Assembly (NCBI RefSeq): GCF_014836675.1 | Contig: NZ_JACSQK010000006.1 | Span: forward strand, 114,421 to 178,420 | Length of the DNA: 64,000 bases | Reading direction: 5' to 3' | Origin: Comamonas avium | GTDB lineage: Bacteria > Pseudomonadota > Gammaproteobacteria > Burkholderiales > Burkholderiaceae_C | Shown: piece by piece, positions 47,218 through 57,534 of the stretch | Position numbering within the stretch: position 1 is the stretch's first letter | How the letters are laid out: each line of letters starts with the position of its first letter | The notes under the pieces: model-generated | What the model was told of the DNA's origin: nothing | Database searches by the model: none | Seen by the model: only the letters and a program-made list of their open reading frames with translations | Position numbers and translations under genes: made by a program

Positions 47218-49332
47218 ATGACGGCTGAATACAAGGTTCACGGCGCAGTGGCCGTGATCACGCTCAACAACCCGCCTGTCAATGGTCTGGGTTTGTCCAC
47301 CCGCCGTGCCGTGATTGAAGGCTTGAACAAGGCCAACGCCGATGCTGCGGTGCAAGCCATCGTGATCACGGGTGCAGGCAAGGCGTTCTCGGGCGGCGCT
47401 GACATCAAGGAATTTGGCAAAGAGTCGGCTTTGCAAGAACCCAACTTGCACACTGTGATTGCGCAGCTCGAGCATTCGAGCAAGCCCGTTGTGGCCGCCA
47501 TTCACTCCGTGTGCATGGGCGGTGGGCTGGAGCTGGCCCTGGGTTGTCACTACCGCATGGCGGCACCCGGCACCCTTGTTGCTTTGCCTGAAGTCAAGCT
47601 GGGTCTGCTGCCCGGCGCGGGTGGCACACAAAGGCTGCCACGCGCGATTGGGGTGGAGCCGGCGCTGAACATGATCGTCAGTGGTGAATCCATTCAGAGC
47701 GACATGCTGGCGCAAATTCCGGGGCAAAAGCTGTTTGACAAACTCTCGGGCAGCGCGCAGACGCTGGCGGCAGAGGTCTTGATCTTTGCACAGGAAGTAG
47801 GCGAGCGGCACGTGGCAGGCAACGAGCCTCTGCCCCTGGTGCGCGACCTCCAGTGCAAGCATCCCAAAGGCGATGCCTACTTTGGCTTTGTGCGCAACAT
47901 GGTCAAGGGCATGTCCAAGAATTACCCCGCACCACTCAAGTGTGTGGATGCGGTGCAAGCGGCCACCAAGCGCAAATTCCAGGATGGCCTGGACTTTGAG
48001 CGCGAGCTGTTCGTGAACCTGATGTGGACGCCCGAGTCGCGCGCACTGCGCCACCTGTTCATGGCCGAGCGCGCCACCACCAAGATTGCCGATATTCCAG
48101 CCGATACACCCGTGCGCAACATCCAGAAGGTGGGCGTGATTGGTGCGGGCACCATGGGTGGCGGCATCAGCATGAACTTCCTGAATGCCGGTATTCCGGT
48201 CACTATTTTGGAGACCAAAGCCGAAGCGCTGGAGCGCGGCGTGGCCACCATCAAGAAGAACTACGAAGCGCAGGTCAAGAAGGGCAAGCTCAAGGAAGAC
48301 AAGTACGCACAGCGCATGGCGCTGCTGAGCACCACGCTGAGCTATGACGACCTCAAAGACTGTGACCTGATCATTGAGGCCGTGTTTGAAGAGCTGGGCG
48401 TTAAGGAGATCGTGTTCAAGCAACTGGATGCAGTGGCCAAGCCCGGTGCCATTTTGGCCTCCAACACATCAACGCTGGACGTGGACAAGATTGCGGCTTT
48501 CACCAGCCGCCCACAAGACGTGGTGGGCATGCACTTCTTCAGTCCTGCCAACGTCATGAAACTGCTGGAAGTGGTGCGCGGCAAGGCCACCGCCAAAGAC
48601 GTGATGGCCACCGTCATGCAGATCGCCAAGAAGATCAAAAAGACCGCCGTGGTCTCGGGCGTGTGCGATGGTTTCATTGGCAACCGCATGATTGAGCAGT
48701 ACAGCCGCCAGGCTGGCTTTTTGCTGGATGAAGGTGCCACGCCCCAGCAAGTGGACAAAGCCGCAGAAAAATTTGGCTTTGCCATGGGGCCATTTCGCAT
48801 GGGCGACCTGGCGGGCAACGACATTGGCTGGGCCATCCGCAAGCGCCGCGTAGTCGAAAAACCCGGCATGAAGTACAGCGCCAGTGCTGACCGCCTGTGT
48901 GAGCTGGGCCGCTTTGGGCAGAAAACCGGCAAAGGCTGGTATGACTACCAGGCCGGCAAGCGCGATGCCATCCCCAGCCAGGAAGTGCTGGACATGATTG
49001 ATGCGCACCGCAAGGCCATCGGCATCACGCCGCGCAAGATTTCAGACGAAGAAATCGTGCAGCGCCTGGTGTTCTCGCTGGTCAACGAAGGCGCTCACAT
49101 TCTGGAAGACGGCATTGCCAGCAAGTCCGGTGACATCGACATGGTGTATCTGACTGGATACGGCTTTCCTATCTACCGCGGTGGCCCCATGCATTACGCC
49201 AGCGAGCTTGGCCTGATCAACGTGGTGCAAGCCATGCAGCGCTTTGCTCAGAACCCGCACGACGATGCCAAATTCTGGCAGCCCGCACCTTTGCTGGCGC
49301 GTCTGGCCGCTGAAGGCCAGCGCTTTGCGTAA
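47218..49332 (+). CDS. Bifunctional enoyl-CoA hydratase / 3-hydroxyacyl-CoA dehydrogenase (FadB/FadJ type)
   Basis: 704 residues. An N-terminal crotonase domain (about 1-190) has AFSGGADIKEF, GGGLELALGC and PEVKLGLLPGAGG with the two catalytic Glu positions. A Rossmann 3-hydroxyacyl-CoA dehydrogenase domain follows (about 300-480: VGVIGAGTMGGG, NTSTLDV, HFFSPANVMKLLEVV). Two C-terminal helical domains include CDGFIGNRM and a tail like GYGFPIYRGGPM. It carries out steps 2 and 3 of beta-oxidation with the thiolase 44 nt downstream. GAAGGAGA precedes the ATG. Confidence 0.95.
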   Translation: MTAEYKVHGAVAVITLNNPPVNGLGLSTRRAVIEGLNKANADAAVQAIVITGAGKAFSGGADIKEFGKESALQEPNLHTVIAQLEHSSKPVVAAIHSVCMGGGLELALGCHYRMAAPGTLVALPEVKLGLLPGAGGTQRLPRAIGVEPALNMIVSGESIQSDMLAQIPGQKLFDKLSGSAQTLAAEVLIFAQEVGERHVAGNEPLPLVRDLQCKHPKGDAYFGFVRNMVKGMSKNYPAPLKCVDAVQAATKRKFQDGLDFERELFVNLMWTPESRALRHLFMAERATTKIADIPADTPVRNIQKVGVIGAGTMGGGISMNFLNAGIPVTILETKAEALERGVATIKKNYEAQVKKGKLKEDKYAQRMALLSTTLSYDDLKDCDLIIEAVFEELGVKEIVFKQLDAVAKPGAILASNTSTLDVDKIAAFTSRPQDVVGMHFFSPANVMKLLEVVRGKATAKDVMATVMQIAKKIKKTAVVSGVCDGFIGNRMIEQYSRQAGFLLDEGATPQQVDKAAEKFGFAMGPFRMGDLAGNDIGWAIRKRRVVEKPGMKYSASADRLCELGRFGQKTGKGWYDYQAGKRDAIPSQEVLDMIDAHRKAIGITPRKISDEEIVQRLVFSLVNEGAHILEDGIASKSGDIDMVYLTGYGFPIYRGGPMHYASELGLINVVQAMQRFAQNPHDDAKFWQPAPLLARLAAEGQRFA

Positions 49333-49376
49333 GCGGTGTGTGCCGCTTGAACTGTACGAGTTAAAGGATTGAAGTT

Positions 49377-50552
49377 ATGACATCCGCTGTGATTGTTTCT
49401 ACCGCGCGCACCCCGCTGGCCAAGAGCTGGAAGGGTTCGTTCAATATGACGTATGGCCCCACGCTGGGTGGCCACGTCGTGCAACACGCTGTGCAGCGTG
49501 CAGGCATTGACGGTGCCGATGTGGAAGATGTGGTGATGGGCCTGTCGCTGCCCGAAGGCACGACGGGTGGCAACGTTGCCCGCCTGATTGCCGTGCGTGC
49601 AGGCCTGCCTGTGACGACGTCGGGCATGACCATCAACCGCTTTTGCTCTTCGGGCCTGCAGGCCATTGCCCTGGCTTCGCAACGCATCATTGCGGGTGAA
49701 AACGAGGTGCTGGTGGCCGGTGGCCTGGAAAGCATTTCCTGCGTGCAGCAGGAAGTGAACCAGCATATGGCGCATGACCCTGAGCTGACCAAGATGAAGC
49801 CCGAGATCTACTGGTCCATGCTGCAAACGGCCGAGCAAGTGGCCAAGCGCTACAACATCGGTCGCGAAGCCATGGACGAGTACGGCGCAGCCAGCCAGCA
49901 AAAAGCCTGCGCAGCGCAAGCTGCCGGGCTGTTTGATGCCGAAATTGCCCCCATCACCGTCACCATGGGTGTCGCCGACAAAGTCATGGGCCTGACCACC
50001 AAGCAAGTCACCGTCAGCAAAGACGAGGGCACCCGCGAAGGCACGACTGTGGAGGCTATTTCCGGCCTGCGCAGCGCCTTGCCCGGTGGCTTGATCACGG
50101 CGGGCAACGCCAGCCAGTTCTCTGACGGTGCCGGTGCCTGTGTGGTGGTGCACGAAGACTATGCCAGCAAGAAGGGCCTGCAACCCATTGGCCGCTTTCT
50201 GGGCTTTGCGGTGGCTGGCTGCGAGCCCGATGAAATGGGTATTGGCCCGGTGTTCGCCATTCCCAAGGTGCTCAAAAAGCTGGGTCTTAAGGTGCAGGAC
50301 ATTGACCTGTGGGAGCTCAACGAAGCATTTGCCGTACAGGTGATCTACTGCCGCGACAAGCTGGGCATTCCCAACGAAAAGCTCAATGTCAATGGTGGCG
50401 CAATTGCCTTGGGCCACCCCTATGGTGTCTCGGGCCAGCGCCTCACAGGCCATGCACTGATCGAAGGCAAGCGCCGTGGCGGCAAGCTGGTGTGCGTGAC
50501 CATGTGCATTGGCGGGGGCATGGGCGCTGCCGGTGTGTTTGAAGTCCTGTAA
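49377..50552 (+). CDS. Acetyl-CoA C-acyltransferase (3-ketoacyl-CoA thiolase)
   Basis: 391 residues. Thiolase with the nucleophilic Cys in [10 protein letters not shown], the His in [12 protein letters not shown] and the second Cys in [14 protein letters not shown]. It cleaves 3-ketoacyl-CoA in the last step of beta-oxidation. In operon with the FadB-type gene; a terminator follows at 50690. Confidence 0.95.
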
Positions 50553-50689
50553 GTCACGGCCTGGCGTCAGGAGTCGCCGTTGCCAAAGCCGGTCGTAGCG
50601 CTGCTGCTGACTGCGCTTTGGCGCCTGGTCTCCACCACCCATCTGCGATGGGCTGGCGCTACGACGTGCCTTGGGGCCGCAGGAATCTG

Positions 50690-50727
50690 AGCCGCCGCAC
50701 CTTGATGGCCGAGGAGGCGGCTTTTTT
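50690..50727 (+). terminator. Rho-independent terminator after thiolase
   Basis: AGCCGCC, a loop of about 19 nt, then GGCGGCT followed by six Ts. A palindromic repeat begins 12 nt further on. Confidence 0.8.
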
Positions 50728-50738
50728 ACCGCCTTGAA

Positions 50739-50800
50739 TTTTAAATAACCATAGCTGCTGGCGCTTTCTGCATAAGCGTTAGAGCCTGATTTTTATTAAA
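50739..50800 (+). repeat. Intergenic palindromic repeat, short form
   Basis: ATAGCTGCTGGCGCTTTC, then ATAAGCGTTAGAGCCTGATTTT. It ends 3 nt before the ATG of the acyl-CoA dehydrogenase at 50804, so its hairpin would occupy the ribosome-binding region. Same family as 21351 and 63265. Confidence 0.6.
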
Positions 50801-50803
50801 ACT

Positions 50804-52639
50804 ATGTCTCAGTTGCGATCTACCCTTGAATTCCTGGTGTACGACTGGCTGCAAGCCGAAAATCTGACCAGCCGTGACCGCTACGCCGACCACAGCCGCG
50901 AAACGTTCGATGCGGTCATGGACACCTGCGAGCGCATTGCACGCGAAAAATATGCTCCCTTCAATCGCACGGTAGACACGCAGGAACCCACGTTTGATGG
51001 CGAGAAAGTCAGCCAGCCACAGTGCACGCACGATGCCCGCAAAGCCTTTGCCGACAGTGGCATGCTCAGCGCCGCACAGCCGTATGAAAAAGGCGGCATG
51101 CAACTGCCCTATGTGGTGGAGGCTGCGGCCAACAGTTTCTTTGGCTGCGCCAGCATCAGCATTGGCTCCAACCTGCTGACCGTGGGCAACGCCAACTTGC
51201 TGCGCGTGCACGGCACGCCCATGCAGCAACAGGTGTTTGCCGACAATGAATTCAATGGCCGCTGGGCAGGCACCATGGCCTTGTCTGAGCCACAGGCTGG
51301 CTCCAGTCTAAGCGACATCCTCACGCGTGCTGAGCCCGACGGTGCCGATTTTGACAGCGATGCACTGGGGGCGCGCTACCGCCTCAAGGGCAACAAGATG
51401 TGGATCAGCTCGGGCGATCATGAGCTGACCGAAAACATCGTGCACCTGGTGCTGGCCAAGATTCCCGGGCCGGACGGAAAACTGATTGCGGGCGTGAAAG
51501 GTATCTCGCTGTTCATCGTGCCCAAAAAGCTGGTGGATACCGACGGCAATCTGACGGGTGAGCGCAACGATGTGGCGCTGGCAGGGTTAAACCACAAACT
51601 GGGATGGCGCGGCACCACCAACACGCTGCTCAATTTTGGTGAAGGCAAATACCCGGTGCGTGGCGGTGCAGGGGCGATTGGCTACTTGGTGGGCAAGCCG
51701 CACGAAGGCCTCAAATGCATGTTCCACATGATGAACGAGGCGCGCATCGGCATTGGCATGGCTGCCACCATGCTGGGCCTGGCAGGCTATTACGCCAGCC
51801 TGGAATATGCCAAGAACCGCCCGCAAGGCCGGCCCACGACAGAGGGCGGCAAAGACGCAGCCAGCGCCCAGGTAGCCATCATTGAACACACCGACGTCAA
51901 GCGCATGCTGCTGGCACAAAAGGCGTATTGCGAAGGCGCACTGGCGCTGAACATGTACTGTGCCCGTTTGGTGGACGAAGGACGCACCGGCGCTGCCGAG
52001 GAAGCGGTCCGCTCCAAGCTTTTGCTGGAGGTGCTGACGCCGATTGCCAAGAGCTGGCCCAGTGAGAATTGCCTGGAGGCCAACTCTCTGGCCATCCAGA
52101 TTCATGGTGGCTATGGCTATACGCGCGACTTCCCCGTGGAGCAGTACTGGCGCGACAACCGCCTGAACATGATTCATGAAGGTACGCACGGTATTCAGGC
52201 AGCTGACTTGCTGGGGCGCAAAGTACGCATGCAAGACGGTGCGGGTTTGCAACTGCTGGCTCAGACCATGCAAGCCACGATCAAGAAGGCAGCCGCCCGG
52301 CCCGAGCTTGCGCAGTATGCGCACGACTTGAACCAGGCCTTGCAAGACGTCAGCGCTGCTACGCAGGCCGCATGGCTGACAGGCAATCCGCAAGAAGCAC
52401 TGGCCAATGCCGTGCCCTATATGCAAGCCTTTGGCCACACCGTGCTGGCATGGGTATGGCTGGATGTGGCGTGCAAGGTGCTGGAGCAGGATGCTTCGCA
52501 GGCCTTAGCGGCTAACGCAGGCCGGATCAATGCAATCAGTTATTTTTACCGCTATGAATTGCCAAAAATTACTGCATGGCTGAACGTGGTGAACGCACGC
52601 GATATGACTTGTGCACAGATGCCGGTGGAAGCCTTTTAA
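50804..52639 (+). CDS. Acyl-CoA dehydrogenase, large (about 600 aa) class
   Basis: 611 residues. Acyl-CoA dehydrogenase fold with GTMALSEPQAGSSLSDI, GNKMWISSGDHE, NEARIGIGMAATMLGLAGY and IQIHGGYGYTRDFPVEQYWRDNRLNMIHEGTHGIQ, followed by a helical C-terminal domain (about 480-600). This large class carries out the first step of fatty acyl-CoA beta-oxidation. There is no Shine-Dalgarno sequence before the ATG; an intergenic repeat abuts it. Follows the FadB-thiolase genes and completes a beta-oxidation set. Confidence 0.92.
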   Translation: MSQLRSTLEFLVYDWLQAENLTSRDRYADHSRETFDAVMDTCERIAREKYAPFNRTVDTQEPTFDGEKVSQPQCTHDARKAFADSGMLSAAQPYEKGGMQLPYVVEAAANSFFGCASISIGSNLLTVGNANLLRVHGTPMQQQVFADNEFNGRWAGTMALSEPQAGSSLSDILTRAEPDGADFDSDALGARYRLKGNKMWISSGDHELTENIVHLVLAKIPGPDGKLIAGVKGISLFIVPKKLVDTDGNLTGERNDVALAGLNHKLGWRGTTNTLLNFGEGKYPVRGGAGAIGYLVGKPHEGLKCMFHMMNEARIGIGMAATMLGLAGYYASLEYAKNRPQGRPTTEGGKDAASAQVAIIEHTDVKRMLLAQKAYCEGALALNMYCARLVDEGRTGAAEEAVRSKLLLEVLTPIAKSWPSENCLEANSLAIQIHGGYGYTRDFPVEQYWRDNRLNMIHEGTHGIQAADLLGRKVRMQDGAGLQLLAQTMQATIKKAAARPELAQYAHDLNQALQDVSAATQAAWLTGNPQEALANAVPYMQAFGHTVLAWVWLDVACKVLEQDASQALAANAGRINAISYFYRYELPKITAWLNVVNARDMTCAQMPVEAF

Positions 52640-52843: not shown

Positions 52844-52930
52844 ATGCAAAAGTTTATGGATTCGGCCAACAGCGTTGGCTGCCCTGTGTGTGCGTATGTC
52901 TGCGATGTGTGGGGGCGCAGCGTCGCATGA
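52844..52930 (+). CDS. Candidate 28-aa Cys-containing leader ORF
   Basis: An ATG at 52844 opens a 28-codon frame. The peptide contains GCPVCAYVC, a CxxC followed by another Cys three residues on. Its TGA (52928-52930) overlaps the hydroxylase ATG (52927) as ATGA, so re-initiation coupling is possible. TATCAT ends 7 nt before the ATG, fitting a leaderless mRNA. It could be a coupling leader, a small metal-binding peptide or chance. No homology was available. Confidence 0.4.
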   Translation: MQKFMDSANSVGCPVCAYVCDVWGRSVA

Positions 52931-53676
52931 GCGCGGGGGAGTGGTTCACGCAATTGAGCGCCTGGCAGGTCATGCTGCTGGGGTTGGTCTTTTTTGGCAG
53001 CCTGTATCTGCTGGGCGGTGCAAGCATGCAGGCTTTGACACGCAGCCTCTCGCGCAAAGGTGTTGGTCATGTGCTGGATACGCGTCCTCTCAAGCCCGAT
53101 CAACTGCAGCGTGAATGGCGCCAGTCACTGCACTCGGTGCTGCTGTTTGGCATTGGCATGGTGGTGCCCTGGGGGCTGTTGCAACTGGGGTGGGCGCAAC
53201 TGGCGCCCAGTGCCAGCGCGGGGCGTGTGGCGCTGGAAATTGTGGTGCTGATGATCTGGAACGATGTGCACTTCTGGATCAATCACCGCTTGCTGCATAC
53301 CCGCCCGCTGGCGCGCTTTCATACTGACCACCATCGCTCCATCGTGACCACACCGTGGTCCACCTACAGTTTTCACCCGGTAGAGGCGCTGATGCTGGGC
53401 AACATCATCTTGTTGCCCATGCTGGTGCACGATTTTTATTTCTGGTCTTTGGCAGCAGTGCCGGTGCTCAGCCTGCTACTCAATCTCGTTGGTCACTCCA
53501 ACTACGATTTCTTTCCGCGTGTGTCTGACAACCACCCGCTGGCTGCCAGCCGCCGCCACTATTTGCACCACGCACGGCCCAAAGGCAACTATGGCTTTGC
53601 GTTGGCGTTCATGGATCGGTGGATGCGCACGCAGGCCGAGGCAGCACCGGCATCCAGCAGCCGTGGTACGCACTGA
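52927..53676 (+). CDS. Sterol desaturase/fatty acid hydroxylase family membrane protein
   Basis: 249 residues. Two N-terminal membrane helices (about 12-30, 68-90) and further hydrophobic segments follow the diiron His clusters NHRLLH (H120, H124), HTDHH (H132, H135, H136) and HYLHH (H211, H214, H215). This is the HxxxH-HxxHH-HxxHH pattern of membrane hydroxylases and desaturases. Such enzymes insert oxygen or a double bond in a lipid chain. The ATG overlaps the 28-codon leader ORF, and the next gene starts on the base after its stop, so it begins a tight operon with the desaturase and the KAS-HDO fusion. Confidence 0.88.
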   Translation: MSAGEWFTQLSAWQVMLLGLVFFGSLYLLGGASMQALTRSLSRKGVGHVLDTRPLKPDQLQREWRQSLHSVLLFGIGMVVPWGLLQLGWAQLAPSASAGRVALEIVVLMIWNDVHFWINHRLLHTRPLARFHTDHHRSIVTTPWSTYSFHPVEALMLGNIILLPMLVHDFYFWSLAAVPVLSLLLNLVGHSNYDFFPRVSDNHPLAASRRHYLHHARPKGNYGFALAFMDRWMRTQAEAAPASSSRGTH

Positions 53677-54612
53677 ATGGGACTGATGCAGCATGCGTTT
53701 GCAGGCTTGCCTGGCCTGCGCCATTGGCGTGATGTGCAGTCTCTGGCATATCTGGTAGCGCTGCCGCTGCTGGTGGCTTGGCAATGGCACAACGGATTTG
53801 TCTGGTGGCTGTATGCCGCACTGCTGTTTTTGACACTGGGCATTGGCGTAATTCACCACAACCACACGCACTTGCGCATGTGGCGCGGGCGTTGGGCCAA
53901 CCGGGTAACCGACTACGTGCTGACTGTGCTGCAAGGCCACCCCACCTTTGTTTTTTGGCCTGCGCATGTGGGCAATCACCACCGTTTTCGCCATGGCCCG
54001 CAAGATTTGGCACGCACCTACCAGCCTGCATTTGGAGGTGATACCAACAACCTTTGGGGCTACCTGGTGCACCCCTTGCAGGCGGCGTGGGTGCTGTACC
54101 CGCTGTTTGTGCGCTGGCTGCTGCGTTTGCGCCTGAGCGCACCGGGCGCATTTCGTTATTGCATGGGGCAGTACGTGCTGTGGGTGGGCAGCTGGGCTTT
54201 CTTTCTGGTGCTGGACTGGCAAAAAGCTTTGCTGTTTGTCATCGTGCCGCAGCTGCATGGTTTGCACTGGCTGCTGGCCACCAACTATCTGCAGCACGCC
54301 CATGCCGATGGTCGCCCCTTGAGCCGGGCGCAGCGCCAGTCCCCCCATGCCGTGTTGAATTACGCGCGCAATTTTCAGGGCTGGGTCAACCCCTTGCTGT
54401 TCAATATTGGGCTGCACACAGCGCACCATGAACACCCGCAGGCGCATTGGTCGGATTTGCAGCGCCTGCACTGTGAGCACTACCAGCACCGTGTGGCACC
54501 TGCATTGAACGAAGCGGGGCTGCTTGCCTACATGGGGCGCGTGTTTGTGCTGGGCCTCGTGTGGCCCAAGGCTCGTACCCAGTCTTTGCTGCCGCCCCAA
54601 GATATCTGTTAA
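53677..54612 (+). CDS. Membrane fatty acid desaturase family protein
   Basis: 311 residues with four or more hydrophobic helices (about 24-36, 42-58, 163-178, 184-200). His boxes are HHNHTH (60-65), HVGNHHRFRH (97-106), HAH (207-209) and HTAHHEHP (247-254), the diiron ligands of acyl desaturases. There is no acyl carrier nearby, so the substrate (free acid, phospholipid, CoA or a product of the KAS-HDO protein) is unknown. The ATG directly follows the hydroxylase TGA (TGA-ATG). Confidence 0.88.
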   Translation: MGLMQHAFAGLPGLRHWRDVQSLAYLVALPLLVAWQWHNGFVWWLYAALLFLTLGIGVIHHNHTHLRMWRGRWANRVTDYVLTVLQGHPTFVFWPAHVGNHHRFRHGPQDLARTYQPAFGGDTNNLWGYLVHPLQAAWVLYPLFVRWLLRLRLSAPGAFRYCMGQYVLWVGSWAFFLVLDWQKALLFVIVPQLHGLHWLLATNYLQHAHADGRPLSRAQRQSPHAVLNYARNFQGWVNPLLFNIGLHTAHHEHPQAHWSDLQRLHCEHYQHRVAPALNEAGLLAYMGRVFVLGLVWPKARTQSLLPPQDIC

Positions 54613-54629
54613 CCAGAACGACACTACCT

Positions 54630-56564
54630 ATGCCTGTTGCTTATTCCAATGTCTATCTGCAGTCTGCCGGCTGGTTCTTGCCGGGCTCTCCGGTGGATAA
54701 CGCCGGTATGGATGCTTTTGTTGCACCGCTGAACCGCTTGTCTGAACGCATCAAGCGCCGCATCCTGGGTGAAAACGGTATTCAGTTGCGCCATTACGCA
54801 CTGGATGCGCAGGGCCAGACAGTATTCAGCAATACACAGATGGCGGCTGCTGCGATTGCCGCATGCATGCAAGGTGCGGGACGTAAGCTGGATGAGGTGG
54901 GATTTTTGGCCAGCGGCTCATCGGGCGGCGATGCCCTGATGCCTGGTTTTGCCAGCATGATTCAAGGTGAGATGGCGGCACCACCCATGGAAACGCTGTC
55001 TGTACATGGTGTATGTGCGGCCAGTGTGGGTGCACTGCAAGCGGCTGCGCTGGCCATTGAGAGCGGGGCGCATGCACAGTCGCTGGCTGTGGCCAGTGAA
55101 ATGCCCTCGCGGCTGTTCAAGCGTTCGCGTTTCGCAGCACAAGGCTATGACACCGATTTCGATGCCCATTTTTTGCGCTGGATGCTTTCTGATGGTGCGG
55201 GCGCAGTGCTGCTGGGAGGGCCACAGGCACTGCCCCGGGCACCCGGCTTGCGCCTGAAGCTCAAGTGGACGCATTTGCGCAGTTTTGCGGGCGACTACCC
55301 AGTGTGCATGCAACTGGGGTTGACGCCAGACCGGGCCAAAAGCCACTTGGACTTTCCCGCGTGGGCAGATGCTGAAGCCGCAGGCGCTTTGGCGTTGCGC
55401 CAAGACATCCGCTTGCTGCCGCATCTGTTTGACGTCTGCATCCATGAATATGCCGATCTGGCCCACAAGGGCTGGGTGCCTGAGCGCGGGATTGACCACT
55501 TTCTGTGCCACTACTCCTCTGAGCGCTTCATGCCTGTGGTGCAAGAGTTGCTGGAGAAAGCGCAGCTGGGTATTCCTAAAGAGCGCTGGTGGAGCAATCT
55601 GGCATGGCGTGGCAATACTGGTGCGGCGTCCATTTTCATCATGCTGGCTGAGTTTCTGGACAAGGAGACGGCTCGCTTGAAGGCTGGCGATACGGTGCTG
55701 TGCTTTATCCCTGAGTCGGGGCGTTTCACGGCAGGTTACATGCTCTGGGAGGTTGAGCAGGATGCGCCAGTGGAAACTGAGCAAAAGCCTTTTTTTGCTC
55801 AGAAAGCAAGTGCAGTATCGCCTGCCAATGATGCACTGCCTGATGTGGCGGCCATTGCACCGCCGCATGACCCGGCCGCTGCGCCTGCAGCATTGGCTCC
55901 TTTGTTGACTGAGCTGGCCAGCGTGTGGCAAGACTACCGCTCTCAGGTCTGGCGCACACCGCTGCTGCAGCGAATGCGTACCCGCCAGTTGCACACCGCC
56001 GACTATGTGCGCTGGATGGAGCACTGGATTCCACAGGTGCGTGAAGGCAGTCTGTGGATGCGCGAAGGCGCAGCCTCGCTGACAGGGGATTACGCTGCAC
56101 TGGCGGCGCTGATTGATCTGCATGCCGACGACGAGCAGCACGACTTTAAAGTGCTGCACAGCGACTATCTGAAAGCCGGGGGGACGCAAGCCGACATCAG
56201 CCAGTTGCGGCGCAACCCCGGTGGTGAAGCGCTGAATGCCTACCTGCATGGCTTGGCGGCCACACCCAATCCGATCGGTTTGCTGGGGGCGATCTACATC
56301 ATTGAAGGCACGGGCCAGCGCATTGTGCCCAGCTTGCTGCCTTTGTTGCGTCAGGCCTTGCCGCTGCCACCTGATGCCTTCCGTTTTCTGGAATATCACG
56401 GTGCCAACGATGAGCACCATCTGGAGCGCTGGCTGATGGCGGTGCAGATGACGCTGGAGATGGACACCACGGGTACGGCGCAGCCAGCCATCATCCAGAC
56501 TGCCCGCCATACTGCTGCGATTTACCTGATGCAGTTTCAGCATGTGCTGACTGCGCAGGCTTGA
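54630..56564 (+). CDS. KAS III-HDO fusion: 3-oxoacyl synthase III-like domain plus heme-oxygenase-like diiron domain
   Basis: 644 residues. Residues 1-385 are a thiolase-fold KAS III-like domain with the triad Cys129 (VHGVCAASVG), His294 (FLCHYSS) and Asn329 (RGNTGAASI). An Ala/Pro-rich linker (385-425) leads to a heme-oxygenase-like diiron (HDO) domain (about 425-640). It carries LHADDEQHDF (D501/E502, H504), E559 in YIIEGTG and HGANDEHH, an HxxxDxxH helix (H590, D594, H597), matching metal ligands of UndA- and SznF-type enzymes. Known HDO members cleave or desaturate fatty acids and amines. The two halves could condense then oxidise an acyl chain. I chose the ATG at 54630. Product unknown. 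Confidence 0.85.
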   Translation: MPVAYSNVYLQSAGWFLPGSPVDNAGMDAFVAPLNRLSERIKRRILGENGIQLRHYALDAQGQTVFSNTQMAAAAIAACMQGAGRKLDEVGFLASGSSGGDALMPGFASMIQGEMAAPPMETLSVHGVCAASVGALQAAALAIESGAHAQSLAVASEMPSRLFKRSRFAAQGYDTDFDAHFLRWMLSDGAGAVLLGGPQALPRAPGLRLKLKWTHLRSFAGDYPVCMQLGLTPDRAKSHLDFPAWADAEAAGALALRQDIRLLPHLFDVCIHEYADLAHKGWVPERGIDHFLCHYSSERFMPVVQELLEKAQLGIPKERWWSNLAWRGNTGAASIFIMLAEFLDKETARLKAGDTVLCFIPESGRFTAGYMLWEVEQDAPVETEQKPFFAQKASAVSPANDALPDVAAIAPPHDPAAAPAALAPLLTELASVWQDYRSQVWRTPLLQRMRTRQLHTADYVRWMEHWIPQVREGSLWMREGAASLTGDYAALAALIDLHADDEQHDFKVLHSDYLKAGGTQADISQLRRNPGGEALNAYLHGLAATPNPIGLLGAIYIIEGTGQRIVPSLLPLLRQALPLPPDAFRFLEYHGANDEHHLERWLMAVQMTLEMDTTGTAQPAIIQTARHTAAIYLMQFQHVLTAQA

Positions 56565-56580
56565 GCATCAAGGAGCGGCT

Positions 56581-57534
56581 ATGAAGAAACACAATGATTT
56601 TCTGGAGCAGCCCTGGGATGAGCGCGACCCCAGCCCCTGGCTGGCGCTGTACCTGGACCAGAGCACCCCGCTGCCAGATGCGGTCAAAGCCGCATGGCTG
56701 CGTGACTGCAGCAGTGGTTCGCGCCAGTATTTACTGCCCTTTTTACGGCCTTTGGCACGCTTGAGCATCATCTTGATTCAGGTGCTCAAAGTGCTGCTGC
56801 CCAAGCGCTGGGCGCATTCAATCTTGCTGCACAAAGTGCTGGCGTTCAGCATGAAAACCTTTGTCTCGCCCGAGGCCAACTGGTTGATCATGCGCCACTT
56901 TCACCTGGGTTCGCACATCCTGGCTTTTGTGGCTGCGAATGCTCCGACAAAGGTTGCCACCTACCCGATTGCACCCACCACGCTGGACGATATCAAGGAC
57001 GAACTGTTTCTCAAGCATGACCTGAATCTGTTTAACTTCGTCATCCGGCTCAACAAGGCTTTGCGCAACGCAGGGCAGGACATTGGTCCGGTGCCAGAGC
57101 CTGATTTTTCGATGATTACAGAGCCAGCGATGGCATTGAGTGACATGCCCAGAGGCTGGCTGAACCGGCTGGATCTGCAAAGTGCCATTGAGGTCTACAC
57201 CCCCGTCTACCAACTGCTGCTGACCGACAACGACTTCTGGCGCGCCAGTAATTCTTTGCAGCTGGATGAAACCCTGGCCATTTATTGCGCCAAGATCTTG
57301 GGCTCACCCGAGCATCTGGTGATGCTCAATAACAAACACCCGCTGGTGCCGCTTTCGACCTTGCGGGCAGGTCACCGTCTGGTATTGCATGGCCTGTCGA
57401 CCGAAATGCTCCATTGCCTGCTGGCACGCATGGCCAGTGGAGAGCTGACGCTGCCATCGCGGGCCATGGCCAGCCTGCAGGCCGACCTGGCACGCGCAGT
57501 GGCTGGCAAGGATGGTGGCACAAGCGCTGCATAA
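56581..57534 (+). CDS. Unrecognised protein partner of the KAS-HDO fusion
   Basis: 317 residues, not recognised. It has amphipathic or hydrophobic segments near 49-75 and 82-96, then a His-rich block (MRHFHLGSHILAFV, about 101-115). The C-terminal half contains NKALRNAGQDIGPV and HRLVLHGLSTEMLHCLL and looks helical. No clear signal peptide. The His residues could bind metal, or the protein could be a peripheral membrane helper. AAGGAG lies 6 nt before the ATG, and it starts 16 nt after the fusion gene, so it belongs to that operon. No terminator is clear after it. Confidence 0.75.
   Translation: MKKHNDFLEQPWDERDPSPWLALYLDQSTPLPDAVKAAWLRDCSSGSRQYLLPFLRPLARLSIILIQVLKVLLPKRWAHSILLHKVLAFSMKTFVSPEANWLIMRHFHLGSHILAFVAANAPTKVATYPIAPTTLDDIKDELFLKHDLNLFNFVIRLNKALRNAGQDIGPVPEPDFSMITEPAMALSDMPRGWLNRLDLQSAIEVYTPVYQLLLTDNDFWRASNSLQLDETLAIYCAKILGSPEHLVMLNNKHPLVPLSTLRAGHRLVLHGLSTEMLHCLLARMASGELTLPSRAMASLQADLARAVAGKDGGTSAA

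Follow-up and report, generated by a model that had tools for sequence, protein, structure and literature searches.

A four-gene operon on the forward strand (52927-57534, +) of a 64,000-nucleotide stretch of the Comamonas avium genome (the window; contig NZ_JACSQK010000006.1, positions 114,421 to 178,420) encodes, in order, a membrane hydroxylase, a membrane desaturase, a fusion of a ketosynthase (KS) with a heme-oxygenase-like diiron oxidase (HDO), and a member of the DUF6999 family. At the sequence level, the fusion is a KS of the StlD/DarB group tethered to an HDO whose set of metal ligands is complete but altered, and it is partnered by DUF6999. We tentatively read the operon as a relative of the DarA/DarB dialkylresorcinol route that lacks DarA.

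The layout had been proposed in an earlier note, which described four tightly spaced genes on one strand, among them a fusion of a 3-ketoacyl-acyl carrier protein synthase III (KAS III) with a heme-oxygenase-like domain. The open reading frames bear out the four genes, and the ACP_syn_III_C and Haem_oxygenas_2 models both score above their cut-offs in one protein (Table 1). The hydroxylase start given in the note, 52844, proved to be out of frame: the ATG at that position meets a TGA at 52928-52930, and the real frame runs from 52927 to 53676. The product of the fourth gene, called unknown in the note, is a full-length member of DUF6999, a family whose entry (PF22523) gives no function.

Conservation of the unit was assessed by scanning GTDB representatives with a DUF6999 alignment, which yielded 460 relatives; the 80 loci closest to the DUF6999 of the window were examined, and these speak for the lineage of the window rather than for all 460. 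For gene content, each locus was matched to a single genome by its record name. The hydroxylase-desaturase-fusion-DUF6999 order is kept at 77/80 loci, and a single frame encodes both KS and HDO at all 78 loci having the two; these figures exceed what chance would give. Other KS-HDO fusions and a recurrent neighbourhood, which the earlier note had proposed looking for, were found, at loci that include Comamonas, Delftia, Variovorax, Achromobacter, Bordetella, Alcaligenes and Advenella; many bacteria of soil and water have the operon. The hydroxylase is present at 79/80 loci, two of which (L114 and L119, both Variovorax) have it beside DUF6999 alone, with the desaturase and fusion at a second genomic site; the last locus (L069, Corticibacter) has the fusion and DUF6999, with hydroxylase and desaturase side by side elsewhere in the genome. 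The desaturase is accordingly found at 77 loci and elsewhere in the genome for the other three. For every one of the 80 loci the genome holds all four genes, split operons included, and the hydroxylase-DUF6999 pairs of L114 and L119 were ruled out as a separate system, since the same genomes carry the desaturase and the KS-HDO gene elsewhere.

Closer to the window, a survey of 61 genomes (its own and relatives, 37 of the window's genus and 24 others) found the full-length fusion in 28/37 and 2/24, respectively, with 61-65% identity in the others; the four-gene order is kept at all 19 other same-genus loci fetched. Median intergenic gaps in the 77 four-gene operons, with start codons set by rule, are −17, 6 and −4 bases, consistent with a single transcript. 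Scans for promoters (1 promoter-like site against a shuffle mean of 2.1) and terminators (10 terminator-like sites against a shuffle mean of 6.3, standard deviation 2.6) were uninformative.

Three further genome searches, which partly share genomes, show that DUF6999 is sparse: it was found in 6/274 genomes of the class, 9/398 of the phylum and 6/289 of the class of genome G539. KS and HDO adjoin DUF6999 in 16 of the 18 distinct genomes bearing it. Of the other two, G134 has DUF6999 alone, and genome G112 holds only fragments, the broken KS and DUF6999 remnants of a decayed copy (L041:1437-2356). In alphaproteobacterial (L051, L138-L142) and gammaproteobacterial (L023, L052, L040) members, two adjoining genes encode KS and HDO separately and DUF6999 comes next, an arrangement that suggests that the two halves of the fusion function together. 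The wider core is KS, HDO and DUF6999; the hydroxylase and desaturase lie outside it. Plasmid records yielded one cluster of these three genes (Pseudoalteromonas), and phage records gave no DUF6999 match. A His-rich, membrane-like protein of ~185 aa precedes the core in two gammaproteobacterial loci (L023:11439-11993, L052:11441-12007); that of L023 matches no Pfam family, and the protein may take the place that the membrane oxygenases have in the operon of the window. At the alpha-type locus L051, a 1133-aa fusion of a major facilitator superfamily (MFS) transporter, an acyltransferase and an AMP-ligase follows the core (L051:5700-9098).

The KS domain retains the catalytic Cys-His-Asn residues of StlD and DarB in a KAS III fold. 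The triad, predicted to be intact in the earlier note, is invariant (C129, H294, N329) in both alignments, of 10 and of 25 proteins, and E157, which aligns with E154 of StlD, is also present. Among the matches listed, StlD is the closest solved structure. Foldseek and VIA also match OleA, an enzyme that makes long beta-keto acids; an OleA-type KS was not preferred. The KS differs from StlD/DarB in its family score, discussed below, in its fused HDO domain, in having no adjoining DarA and in forming its own clade: the 17 fusion rows group together with support of 100/100, and the DarB clade (9 rows, 95/99) stands apart from them, the placement of the L040 and Streptomyces KS being uncertain. 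KS matches were also seen on three Streptomyces plasmids. The Streptomyces plasmid locus L024:9703-19279 is a cluster with a StlD/DarB-like KS, 37% identical to that of the window, and comprises an acyl carrier protein (ACP), the KS, a hypothetical protein, a flavin (FAD) monooxygenase, an SCP2 protein, FabF, a cytochrome P450, a further ACP, FabG and an F420-type oxidoreductase.

The HDO domain belongs to PF14518, and a single-sequence search also matches structure 3dde at 2.6e-7; a profile of 10 HDOs, two of them outgroups, matches 3dde (1.9e-22) and CADD (4.5e-4, 9.5e-4). Across 83 fusion proteins and 9 separate HDOs, seven ligand-type residues, H498, E502, D505, E559, H590, D594 and H597, are each invariant (92/92). 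The domain shares E559 and H590-x3-D594-x2-H597 with the other aligned HDOs of the superfamily that includes UndA, CADD and SznF, along with PF14518, and differs from them in its fused KS and in helix 1, where H498-E502-D505 (HxxxExxD) takes the place of an E and an H. The position of D505 is His in 7/7 other HDOs, and that of H498 is Tyr in 6/7. Thus, the usual set of three histidines and three carboxylates (3H/3C) with a helix-1 His following the ligand Glu is not found; Asp stands there in 92/92, and the ligands of helices 2 and 3 are all present. H498 is a possible substitute histidine for helix 1; the predicted site would count as 2H/4C, and as 3H/4C with H498 among the ligands. The accessible portion of a review (PMC13108848) names 3H/3C, 3H/4C and mononuclear variants, so that the altered helix 1 alone does not exclude membership in the superfamily. 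In the ligand list of the earlier note, E502, E559, H590, D594 and H597 hold; H504, which is His in 5/83 fusion proteins and 0/9 separate HDOs (5/92), and D501, which varies among D, E, A and T, were ruled out. With the set so corrected, the ligands are conserved in homologues, as the note's reading required.

The structure predicted for the fusion (54630-56564) has a predicted local distance difference test score (pLDDT) of 78.6 and a predicted template modelling score (pTM) of 0.56, and leaves the relative orientation of the KS and HDO halves unsettled. The linker between them (about 378-410) is variable, with pLDDT under 50 at residues 382-404. Residues 420-637 are modelled as helical, in blocks with pLDDT of 78-96 and with helix 1 broken at residues 503-504; among the matches listed for the whole chain, all are of KS type. 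The Acinetobacter HDO protein DtpC has katE as a gene neighbour in the portion of its report available (PMC13232832), unlike the context in the window. A further conserved HDO cassette, with gene names as annotated in the records, occurs on Vibrio, Pantoea, Variovorax and Alteromonas plasmids in the order 'thermostable hemolysin', AMP-binding protein, HDO (with the usual ExxH) and short-chain dehydrogenase/reductase (L163:3912-7515, L165:753-4288, L166:909-4583, L167:702-4535), with a tetratricopeptide-repeat protein next in 3/4.

Dialkylresorcinol pathways carry the DarA aromatase gene beside the KS, and no such gene adjoins the fusion. In Azoarcus, darA adjoins darB, according to the accessible part of PMC3949708. 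The DarA-type query, which no Pfam or NCBIfam model names, was named by place, as it adjoins a DarB-like KS in 7/7 loci. It found no match in 15/16 carrier genomes, that of the window included, with 3/3 controls positive, one of them the source of the query, and none in 27/36 carriers of a second set, picked from the 80 loci and partly overlapping the first. Eight of the nine positives of the second set are Variovorax and the other is Parazoarcus; DarA of G979 and G980 adjoins a second KS, of 587-592 bits, whose contig is not that of the fusion. In seven genomes (two Delftia, one C. testosteroni, two Achromobacter, one B. hinzii and one Alcaligenes), no StlD/DarB-like KS other than the fusion rises above FabH level (58 bits or less). 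Searched with the HDO references, the seven DarB loci gave no match. Relative to the DarA/DarB clusters (such as that for arcuflavin, Azoarcus BH72; available text of PMC3949708), the operon shares a DarB-type KS and, as we infer, ring formation, whereas HDO and DUF6999 replace DarA and the other dar genes.

Related regions may already have been flagged by software. As far as the accessible text of two Delftia surveys goes, antiSMASH marked 'resorcinol' regions (PMC8248536, PMC9045143), and biosynthetic gene cluster BGC-4 of D. tsuruhatensis, in all surveyed genomes and with no similarity to known clusters, bears the software label with no gene-level description or product (PMC9045143). In the one D. 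tsuruhatensis genome searched (G971), no other StlD/DarB-like KS exceeds FabH level and DarA was not found; the Delftia 'resorcinol' regions are therefore probably this operon. Searches of the open-licence PMC literature yielded no paper on the KS-HDO fusion, DUF6999 by name, or the operon, though one may exist in print elsewhere.

The AlphaFold2 model of DUF6999 is all helical (pLDDT 83.2, pTM 0.83) and has no convincing fold match in the PDB. Among 95 DUF6999 sequences, 17 residues are invariant and mostly polar, including H106, H146, H270, D147, D198, D229 and E275, besides D26. These polar residues, with three histidines and four acids among them, point to DUF6999 being an enzyme.

These data have led us to a scheme that we regard as possible, though short of probable. 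The KS would make a carboxy-cyclohexanedione from two acyl chains, coupling a beta-ketoacyl to a 2-enoyl thioester, both drawn from the fatty-acid metabolism of the host, through Michael addition with Claisen ring closure. The ring product would be a 4-carboxy-2,5-dialkylcyclohexane-1,3-dione, the class reported for DarB in the accessible part of PMC5515871. With O2, the tethered HDO would oxidise the ring, the likeliest course being an oxidative decarboxylation that yields a dialkylresorcinol by removing the carboxyl and aromatising the ring in one step; by acting in DarA's stead it would account for the missing DarA. The fusion would pass on an intermediate otherwise prone to spontaneous CO2 loss, the hydroxylase and desaturase would tailor the alkyl chains, and DUF6999 would be a further core enzyme, perhaps metal-dependent. 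The product would be a lipid that partitions into membranes, and so would need no dedicated exporter. A fuller version, in which a single cyclase-oxidase polypeptide builds the ring and aromatises it at a diiron centre with rearranged helix-1 ligands (HxxxExxD, an HDO site richer in carboxylates), with DUF6999 as a helical metalloenzyme and a widespread resorcinol-type lipid as the product, is more doubtful.

Several observations weigh against this scheme. The KS scores 309 bits against the 450-bit cut-off of the StlD/DarB model (NF005293), under which three separate-gene relatives (322, 372 and 414 bits) likewise fall, so that by sequence it ranks as a relative of StlD/DarB and is not counted as a member; this score, together with its place outside the DarB clade, means that the KS may have come to catalyse a different reaction. 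None of the sets described in the accessible portion of PMC13108848 has these helix-1 ligands, and UndA-like chemistry is not assured; PF14518 misses the gammaproteobacterial HDO of L023 even at E<=10. No StlD/DarB-like KS accompanies the DUF6999 of genome G134, and the scheme gives DUF6999 no assigned role. In G079, G137, G679, G539 and G742 no desaturase was found and the hydroxylase is distant (29-34%) or not found, which makes both genes additions of the Burkholderiales-type operon. The fusion is absent from 9/37 same-genus genomes, some of them incomplete. DarA is present somewhere in 9/36 and 1/16 carriers, and its absence elsewhere rests on one query sequence with no family model.

Other readings have to be weighed. 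The interpretation in the earlier note stands in part: the KS-HDO fusion holds and the exporters do not, and its alkene or ketone product is now an unlikely rival, in which the KS condenses acyl units into a long ketone or beta-keto acid and a UndA-like step of the HDO yields an alkene or oxidised ketone, modified by hydroxylase and desaturase. The HDO assignment by Pfam and profile, the matches to OleA and the UndA precedent in the available text of PMC13108848 favour it. About as improbable is a membrane-lipid pathway, in which the KS-HDO product lies in or on envelope lipids, with lipid-bound chains as the substrates of hydroxylase and desaturase. The gene for a phospholipase D (PLD)-domain protein in Variovorax, the L051 transporter-acyltransferase-AMP-ligase, a diacylglycerol kinase adjoining locus L050 and the His-rich protein of L023 and L052 would fit such a role, but each is confined to one lineage, amounting to few independent events, and none is in the window.

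The HDO might instead precede the KS, desaturating an acyl thioester to the 2-enoyl acceptor required by a DarB-type KS, with a cyclohexanedione rather than a resorcinol as end product. We consider this quite unlikely. Against it, fatty-acid synthesis already supplies 2-enoyl-ACP, and the seven DarB loci gave no match to the HDO references; in its favour, channelling of the enoyl acceptor would be a benefit of the fusion, a product that is never aromatised would fit the missing DarA, and HDOs are able to desaturate (accessible portion of PMC13108848). That the HDO is non-catalytic, its helix 1 a structural or regulatory metal-binding remnant, we hold very improbable: the loss of the usual helix-1 His and the break in the model would agree with it, but decay would hardly leave seven ligand-type residues invariant across alpha-, beta- and gammaproteobacterial-type loci.

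Table 1. Features of the window operon and the model scores on which their assignment is based
Feature	Coordinates	Strand	Evidence
Membrane fatty-acid hydroxylase/sterol-desaturase superfamily (FAH, PF04116)	52927..53676	+	Pfam FA_hydroxylase 75 bits, cut-off 31, 8.7e-21
Membrane fatty-acid desaturase (FAD, PF00487)	53677..54612	+	Pfam FA_desaturase 70 bits, cut-off 29.7, 4.2e-19
KS-HDO fusion, whole gene	54630..56564	+	Both Pfam domains in one protein
KS domain, StlD/DarB-type KAS III fold, residues 1-376	54630..55757	+	ACP_syn_III_C 34.5, cut-off 26.6
HDO domain (PF14518), residues 411-644	55860..56564	+	Haem_oxygenas_2 36.9 bits, cut-off 28.9
HxxxExxD motif, helix 1, codons 498-505	56121..56144	+	Replaces ExxH of other HDOs
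DUF6999 protein (PF22523)	56581..57534	+	Pfam 427 bits, cut-off 27

Hydroxylase and desaturase have no close solved relative by sequence at E<=1, and these two and DUF6999 match no NCBIfam family at E<=1. The exporters that the earlier note placed beside the operon were not retained: within the downstream flank examined (8 kb at most, and less at some loci), relatives of the MarR and MFS genes occur at 2/80 loci, L053 (with one gene between) and L054, and both were ruled out as parts of the system. The PLD-domain gene lies directly upstream of the hydroxylase in 32/80 loci, all Variovorax (e.g. L076:2635-4317), and is also present at both split-operon loci. Upstream of the operon by ~290 bases, on the same strand (47218-52639), the window carries FadB-like, thiolase and acyl-CoA dehydrogenase genes, named by eye from their translations, and the upstream genes of L054 resemble this fatty-acid beta-oxidation set. 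The record of L073 is titled Pantoea sp. 18069, while its KS groups within Comamonadaceae; it is probably mislabelled or mixed.

If the proposed route is correct, a ring of the StlD/DarB type would receive a diiron, O2-dependent finish, and the HDO superfamily would gain a new ligand pattern and DUF6999 a role. A resorcinol-type lipid would then be widespread in Burkholderiales (460 DUF6999 stretches, 80 examined) and would also occur in alpha- and gammaproteobacteria, and the conserved four-gene unit makes its product directly testable.

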